Of a stretch of DNA of 64,000 nucleotides, positions 5,087-5,554 are shown piece after piece. Location: the NCBI RefSeq assembly GCF_009908265.2, contig NZ_JAAATX020000002.1, forward strand, positions 62,001 through 126,000. The letters are read 5' to 3'. How positions within the stretch are numbered: the stretch's first letter is position 1; each line of letters starts with the position of its first letter. The position numbers and the translations under genes are program-made. Origin of the DNA: Paragemmobacter amnigenus. GTDB taxonomy: Bacteria; Pseudomonadota; Alphaproteobacteria; Rhodobacterales; Rhodobacteraceae. The notes under the pieces are model-generated. The model saw only the letters and a program-made list of their open reading frames with translations, did not search any database and was not told where the DNA came from.

Positions 5087-5518
5087 TCAGGGCTGGTCCC
5101 CCGCCCGCACGCCGTCATGGCGGAAATCGGGGCGCAGCAACTGGTCCAGCATGGCCGACAGGTCCTCGATCACCTCGGCCACCACATGCACCACCCCCGC
5201 CTCGCGCTGCACCCGCCCCGTCACCCGCAGCATCCGCCCCGCGATCACCGCGCGGCGGTAACGCTCGTATACCTTGGCCCAGACCACCACGTTGCAGGTG
5301 CCCGTCTCGTCCTCCAGCGTCACGAAGATCACCCCCTTCGCCGTGCCGGGCCGCTGGCGCACCAGCACCAGCCCCGCCACGCAGACCCGCGCGCCCGCCG
5401 GCGGCTCGTCCAGCCGCGCCGCCACCAGCGCGGCAGGCGGGCGCGGCCACGACCCCGGCCGCGCAAGGGGCCGCATCCAGTCGGTGATCGGGCGATGGGC
5501 AGGGGGCAGGGCAGTCAT
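5087..5518 (-). CDS. Orphan DnaE2-type C-terminal OB-fold protein, LexA-controlled
   Basis: A 143-residue protein that closely resembles only the last domain of the error-prone polymerase DnaE2/Imu[19 protein letters not shown], then [18 protein letters not shown] and [17 protein letters not shown]. Full DnaE2 is over 1000 residues; no polymerase, PHP or finger domain precedes it, and the bases upstream are non-coding. It may be a decayed dnaE2 remnant or a free-standing single-strand-binding OB protein. Against simple decay, the frame is intact and a perfect LexA box sits directly before the start codon. The ATG at 5518 has no ribosome site; a leaderless start is likely. Confidence 0.7.
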
Positions 5519-5520
5519 GA

Positions 5521-5554
5521 GAACAAATATAGAACAAATCCCCGCCGGGACAAG
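5521..5554 (-). promoter_or_regulatory. LexA (SOS) box over the -10 region, probable leaderless promoter
   Basis: On the minus strand GTTC-TATATTT-GTTC (5535-5521) is a perfect copy of the alphaproteobacterial LexA consensus GTTC-N7-GTTC. It contains a -10-like TATATT (5531-5526), with TTGTCC (5553-5548) 16 bases upstream as a -35. The predicted transcript start falls at about 5519-5518, that is at the ATG itself, two bases beyond the box. LexA bound here would cover the -10 element. The consensus is established knowledge; the leaderless start is inferred. Confidence 0.8.

Follow-up and report, generated by a model that had tools for sequence, protein, structure and literature searches.

A separately encoded OB-domain gene with a LexA operator as the probable partner of an OB-less DnaE2 in Rhodobacteraceae

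Introduction

Why would a bacterium maintain a gene that encodes only the last domain of a DNA polymerase, with a LexA box directly in front of its start codon and no polymerase alongside it? This question is raised by a locus in the window, by which we mean the whole 64,000-nucleotide stretch of Paragemmobacter amnigenus DNA that was analysed. A sequence-only reading of the locus had offered two answers, namely a dnaE2 gene whose body had been deleted, or a selected, damage-induced single-strand-binding protein. We examined the gene, its promoter, its genome of origin and its relatives, and we now think it likely, with good confidence, that the gene encodes an SOS-induced OB-domain subunit that completes, in trans, a DnaE2 lacking an OB domain of its own.

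A gene for the last domain of DnaE2

The gene lies at 5087..5518 on the minus strand (stop codon included), begins with ATG and encodes 143 aa. In a profile search, its product matched the 1047-position profile of error-prone DnaE2, NF004225, at positions 944-1040 only (E 2.2e-32), with residues 32-128 of the protein aligned to that stretch, and it also matched the Pfam OB fold PF01336 (E 5e-14). The earlier description of a frame corresponding solely to the last OB domain of DnaE2 was thus borne out. From a 112-row alignment and the secondary structure of a predicted model, we place the OB domain proper at residues about 43-122 (5153..5392, minus strand).

The predicted structure is a five-stranded OB barrel with a mean pLDDT of 82. 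Compared by VIA-align with residues 1005-1099 of 7pu7, a DNA polymerase of M. tuberculosis, it gave Z 11.7 and rmsd 2.2 over 90 residues, a match that is one among many OB folds tied within 1, and single-stranded DNA binders were present among its fold neighbours. The top Foldseek rows were mostly tRNA synthetase OB domains, which for this model we read as indicating an OB fold and nothing further. A sequence search of solved structures returned weak matches only (best DnaE match, E 0.043), and PADLOC gave a single weak match (E 0.0018).

Purifying selection on the gene is shown, at the level of aligned sequences, by dN/dS values of 0.04-0.33 among 36 pairs from nine loci (the genus and one neighbour), values that are rough because the frame overlaps antisense ORFs. 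Numerous further ORFs overlap the locus on both strands, and we take these to be by-products of base composition.

A LexA operator at the start codon

A perfect LexA box, GTTC-N7-GTTC (GTTCTATATTTGTTC; 5521..5535, minus strand), ends 2 nt before the ATG of the OB gene. Inside this operator lies a -10-like hexamer, TATATT (5526..5531), and 16 nt upstream of that hexamer lies a -35-like one, TTGTCC (5548..5553), both on the minus strand and both recognised from the sequence. All of these elements had been described in the sequence-only reading, and all were located. Counting alone leaves the box in the window not significant: 1.39 matches to GTTC-N7-GTTC are expected there by chance, and the whole genome holds 103 of them against 70 for the reversed pattern.

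Although these genome counts would allow a chance box, we reject that explanation on the grounds of position and of conservation across stand-alone OB loci. Our searches for such loci, which covered the class plus plasmids, yielded 120 (112 distinct proteins), from which L064, which starts at a contig edge, was excluded, as was L201 (G039), which has no box and whose upstream DNA continues as DnaE2, so that it is probably a piece of a whole gene. Among the 110 distinct loci that were left for promoter counts, a perfect box stands upstream in 104, whereas chance would give 0.0025 in each 140-nt window of that strand at these loci. The end of the box falls 1-3 nt from the start codon in 95 of these 104 loci, and exactly 2 nt from it in 76. 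The three commonest hexamers inside the box, TATCTT, TATATT and TATTTT, together account for 56 of the 104, and a T is found 18 nt before the box in 100, with TTG at that place in 58.

Given a -10-like hexamer inside the box and a transcription start about 7 bases after it, the 5' end of the mRNA would coincide with the start codon, and we therefore predict a leaderless SOS transcript of the OB gene. The earlier reading had proposed a selected gene with a conserved operator and a leaderless start; the former agrees with the 104 perfect boxes and the dN/dS values, and the latter is probably correct in view of the spacing between box and start codon. Two further loci (L079 and L199) have boxes with one mismatch, and four (L040, L057, L063 and L075) have the OB gene and no LexA box. 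A -10-like TAGACT near the ATG persists in those four, which suggests that the compact start outlasts control by LexA, and they constitute a natural test of SOS control. Elsewhere in the genome of P. amnigenus (G000:C1:140348-140383), two perfect LexA boxes are closely spaced.

An OB-less DnaE2 body in the same genome

A search of the same genome with NF004225 (cut-off 939 bits) found three places: a DnaE1-type chain that scores 605.9 bits and so falls below the cut-off, the OB gene of the window, and a DnaE2 body at G000:C4:200584-203400 that scores 1208.6 bits. The body covers profile positions 4-941 and nothing beyond. Its product of 940 aa has the C-terminal end ...HPMALLRPWLTPEAA, finishing with LTPEAA right after the last conserved helix, and a perfect LexA box stands 46 nt before its start codon. 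Its translation contains PDIDVDF and LKVDVLALG, which we take to be the catalytic acidic motifs.

Since the body accounts for positions 4-941 and the OB gene for 944-1040, two genes on different contigs together cover the profile a single time, and, judged from these alignments, the two genes make up a split DnaE2. The DnaE2 of this genome is accordingly not a single polypeptide with a C-terminal OB domain. The earlier statement that no polymerase body is present therefore holds for the locus and fails for the genome. Likewise, the notion of a dnaE2 whose body was deleted has to be given up, since the body is intact over 4-941 elsewhere and has a LexA box of its own, and the profile search for a full dnaE2 elsewhere in the genome found only this OB-less body.

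ImuB (551 aa) is encoded at G000:C4:231709-233361, about 28 kb from the body, and the body, the OB gene and imuB thus occupy three separate places. LexA operators are also frequent in front of split bodies across genomes. Within 150 nt and in either orientation, a perfect box was found for 26 of 43 split bodies and a box with at most one mismatch for 40 of 43, compared to 0.8% and 9.7%, respectively, of 1980 control windows from the same body loci.

The genomic site and a decayed copy

Upstream of the OB gene and divergent from it is a gene for a 2Fe-2S ferredoxin (PF00111; 5673..5996, plus strand), and downstream is a gene for a protein with a peptidoglycan-binding domain (PF01471; 4455..5042, minus strand); we use both as landmarks and place both outside the system. 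The ferredoxin gene is upstream and divergent in 86 of the 87 loci compared, at a distance of 300 nt or less in 83, and the peptidoglycan-binding gene is found in 52 of the 87, being downstream and in the same orientation in 51 of these. A gene for a Hint-domain protein (PF13403; 6000-6755, minus strand) adjoins the ferredoxin gene in the window and had no match in the 87 loci.

In six genomes with whole DnaE2 (loci L241, L242, L247, L248, L249 and L250), the ferredoxin gene adjoins the peptidoglycan-binding gene, with no above-chance OB match between the two. The genome G020, with two whole DnaE2s but without a truncated body, retains an OB remnant between these landmarks. This remnant shares 53% identity with the OB of a relative over residues 69-119 of the latter, its first half is unrecognisable, and it has no LexA box. 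To judge by what is left of it, the OB gene has decayed in this genome, where the polymerase is whole, a single case.

Co-occurrence of the two pieces across the family

We counted stand-alone OB genes, truncated bodies and whole DnaE2s in a sample of 150 Rhodobacteraceae genomes of at least 95% completeness, of which four were dropped, leaving 146. The apparent split in G027 is an artefact: its gene reaches the end of a contig of 217,585 bases, and the OB starts at base 9 of that contig. In G150, G154 and G216, the apparent stand-alone OB matches have the tail PSRDFH of whole DnaE2 and represent parts of whole genes. Both pieces occurred together in 62 of the 146 genomes, the body only in 4, the OB gene only in 1 and neither in 79, and among these 79 a whole DnaE2 was present in 68 and no DnaE2 in 11. 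The Fisher p value of 3.8e-35 for co-occurrence is inflated by shared ancestry, the counts not being independent because the split seems to have happened once. Nearly each of the 62 split-pair genomes is of another genus. A truncation limited to the strain of the window, which had been considered beforehand, is incompatible with this distribution.

Among the genomes with the body only, G202 and G218 gave no ferredoxin match at E 1e-20, G062 gave a ferredoxin match of only 43%, and in G129 the contig ends about 220 nt upstream of the ferredoxin gene. Since the marker is missing, diverged or close to a contig end in these four genomes, they probably represent assembly gaps. The reverse case is G069 (7 contigs), which has an OB gene with a LexA box at G069:C4:2083543-2083938 and an ImuB, and no DnaE2 body; here, either the body was lost or the OB protein has a second role. 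One of the 62, Dinoroseobacter shibae (G053), has the split pair on C1 beside a whole DnaE2 on a plasmid (C4:60274-63618, NC_009957), where it forms part of an imuB-dnaE2 cassette, and since the pair is retained there, decay of the OB gene beside a whole DnaE2 is not obligatory.

ImuB follows the same pattern. It was matched in all 18 tested genomes with the OB gene or the body, whereas in all 12 tested genomes with neither piece a match was either absent or weak (E 2e-4, 6e-4). The match in G202 is a piece at a contig end. At G221:C1:3125770-3127352, the ImuB match is in two pieces with two stop codons, while the split pair is retained; imuB is broken there, or the sequence contains an error. 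In G004, a 1.5-Mb genome from the genus of the window, the OB gene, the body and ImuB are all absent. A search of plasmid records gave no annotated stand-alone OB among the best 40 of 830 matches, these being mostly annotated as error-prone DNA polymerase and in some cases carrying no annotation.

A single clade of split bodies and a motif of the stand-alone OB proteins

Our body tree comprised 42 split and 49 whole DnaE2 bodies, leaving out L152 (broken frame) and L181, L179 and L118 (fragments or contig edge). The split bodies form a single clade (42 of 42, support 0.969), to which L139 (G022) and L219 (G035) are the nearest whole DnaE2s, and from this topology the split seems to have happened once. 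The OB tree, which is short and weak, agrees with the body tree, in that one clade (support 0.77) holds 109 of the 116 stand-alone rows; L201, the probable piece of a whole gene, is one of the seven rows outside it.

Split and whole polymerases also differ in their ends and in their neighbours. An L[TS]P motif follows the last conserved helix, near the end, in 41 of the 42 split bodies and in none of the 49 whole DnaE2s, 46 of which end in R-D/N/E-F plus one residue. For 44 of the 49 whole dnaE2 genes, imuB lies upstream on the same strand with its match ending within 660 nt, while it is so placed within 900 nt of none of 43 split bodies and appears anywhere in the flanks (mostly 4 kb) of only 5.

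The separated pieces have diverged in step, with a correlation between OB and body distances of r 0.93 (595 pairs, 35 genomes). Up to a body distance of 35%, the relative rate of the OB is no higher than in whole DnaE2, and from 35 to 50% it is slightly faster (1.18 versus 1.11).

In front of its OB domain, the window protein has an N-terminal extension with the motif WPRPP (residues 24-28; 5435..5449, minus strand), a putative docking element. The tryptophan, W24, is conserved in 108 of 111 alignment rows, and WPxPP is present in 106 of the 110 stand-alone OB loci and in 0 of 49 whole DnaE2s. Four further stand-alone OBs fall outside the 110, and the motif is found as WPxPP or in the form W-P-K-P-P in two of them (G145, G183) and not in the other two (G134, G149). 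We propose that the segment docks the OB protein on the DnaE2 body. Comparison of WPRPP with the C-terminal motifs of ImuB gave no defensible pattern.

How the two pieces may work together

In whole DnaE proteins, the OB domain is thought to give contact with the single-stranded template. We read this DnaE2 as a two-piece enzyme because the OB-less bodies form one clade and their genomes hold a separate OB gene beside ferredoxin. Under this reading, DNA damage would cause LexA to leave the operator, which overlies the -10-like hexamer and stops immediately short of the start codon, whereupon a leaderless mRNA would be made from the OB gene and translated. The OB protein would then bind the OB-less body, perhaps via WPRPP, within an ImuB-DnaE2 mutasome, and would supply the template contact. 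Since the body has its own operator, assembly of the full polymerase would require induction of both pieces.

A more specific version, which we advance tentatively and consider rather less probable than its converse, is that the OB protein is a separately regulated, leaderless SOS subunit that licenses mutagenic synthesis, with WPRPP docking in place of the covalent link. If so, the error-prone enzyme would be built only when two operators open.

The earlier suggestion of a single-strand-binding protein was right in assuming a selected gene and incomplete otherwise, as co-occurrence with an OB-less body points to a detached polymerase subunit. It is unlikely, in our judgment, that the OB domain parted from DnaE2 to do other work as a free-standing SOS single-strand-binding protein while the body works without it. 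Such a role would suit the complete OB fold that is predicted, the DNA binders among its fold neighbours and the retention of the OB gene without a body in G069, and some C-family polymerases are reported without an OB domain in the accessible part of PMC3919608. However, the OB gene is found with the body in 62 genomes, it has decayed in G020, where DnaE2 is whole, it is missing, along with the body and ImuB, from the congeneric genome G004, and its product carries a motif missing from the whole DnaE2s compared. We give still less credence to a regulatory antagonist, in which the OB protein would restrain the mutasome by binding ImuB or DNA and would not complete DnaE2: the body is without exactly this domain, and the constraint on the OB is similar to that in whole DnaE2, even though co-induction with the body would suit a brake too and docking on the body is a proposal.

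That only the last domain is encoded at the locus might also suggest a decaying fragment of a dnaE2 with a deleted body. This is extremely improbable given the range of dN/dS in 36 pairs, the open frame and operator retained across most of the 110 loci and the existence of the body elsewhere in the genome, and G020 illustrates the appearance of a true remnant. A split intein that joins the halves by protein splicing, as in cyanobacterial DnaE, has a precedent in that intein splitting of a C-family polymerase is known (PMC3919608, accessible part), but it is barely conceivable here, where the 940-aa body ends at the last conserved helix plus LTPEAA and only about 40 residues precede the domain of the OB protein, leaving little room for an intein half in either.

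If the two-piece reading is correct, an SOS polymerase can be divided into parts under separate control and persist in that state in 62 of 146 sampled genomes, and DnaE2s recorded as being without an OB domain may have been misread, their OB being encoded elsewhere. What the OB domain does in error-prone DnaE2 is hard to study because the domain is part of the enzyme. Here it is a separate gene, open to deletion, tuning or exchange while the catalytic chain stays as it is.

Comparison with known systems

With the LexA-controlled ImuA-ImuB-DnaE2 mutasome (in which DnaE2 is also called ImuC), the present system has in common a DnaE2 homologue, LexA-type operators and an ImuB in the genome; it differs in that the polymerase is in two chains and that the body, the OB gene and imuB are dispersed. 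In its accessible part, the work of Timinskas and co-workers from 2013 (PMC3919608) describes several DnaE2 sequences without an OB domain, as are the chains studied here, yet where that text states that the OB is lacking, we find it encoded by a gene elsewhere that has a LexA operator of its own. The same part describes a cyanobacterial DnaE that is split and joined by an intein. There, too, one C-family polymerase comes from two genes, whereas here no intein was seen, as judged from the leftover sequence, and the chain is divided immediately ahead of the OB domain. Cassettes of imuAB-dnaE2 may be contiguous or split (PMC3919608), and mutasome genes may lie at more than one LexA-controlled place, for example in mycobacteria (PMC3919608, PMC6511836; accessible parts). 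Such split cassettes share the dispersal of mutasome genes over LexA-controlled places with our system, but they are cut between genes, while here the polymerase itself is cut.

OB-less DnaE2s have thus already been published, and the relocated OB gene is without a report in the literature searched: our searches, which covered main texts, few of them from subscription journals, found none of a separate DnaE2 OB gene. The accessible main text of a 2026 polymerase census (PMC12926913) contains neither "OB domain" nor "OB-fold", and its section on DnaE2 partners names no stand-alone OB protein. For D. shibae, an imuA-imuB-dnaE2 cassette on the 126-kb plasmid is described in the accessible part of PMC9426580, and the main text of PMC6473078, as far as accessible, is without dnaE, imu or OB-fold.

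Possible traces of the rearrangement

HPR occurs near the end of 4 of 42 split bodies and of 31 of 49 whole DnaE2s. In those four split bodies (L164, L178, L232 and L234), the HPR ends resemble the tail that follows the OB domain in whole DnaE2s. This resemblance is only suggestive of an OB domain cut out of the middle of the chain with the C-terminal tail left on the body, and we do not claim such an excision, because 4 of 42 bodies have HPR and the stand-alone OB of G145 keeps a similar tail. In that genome (G145:C42, L229, and G145:C48), the frame of the stand-alone OB extends to about 400 aa, with a long low-complexity stretch separating WPRPP from the OB domain, and it ends in a tail resembling that of whole DnaE2. 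The long frame may be an intermediate or an independent rearrangement.
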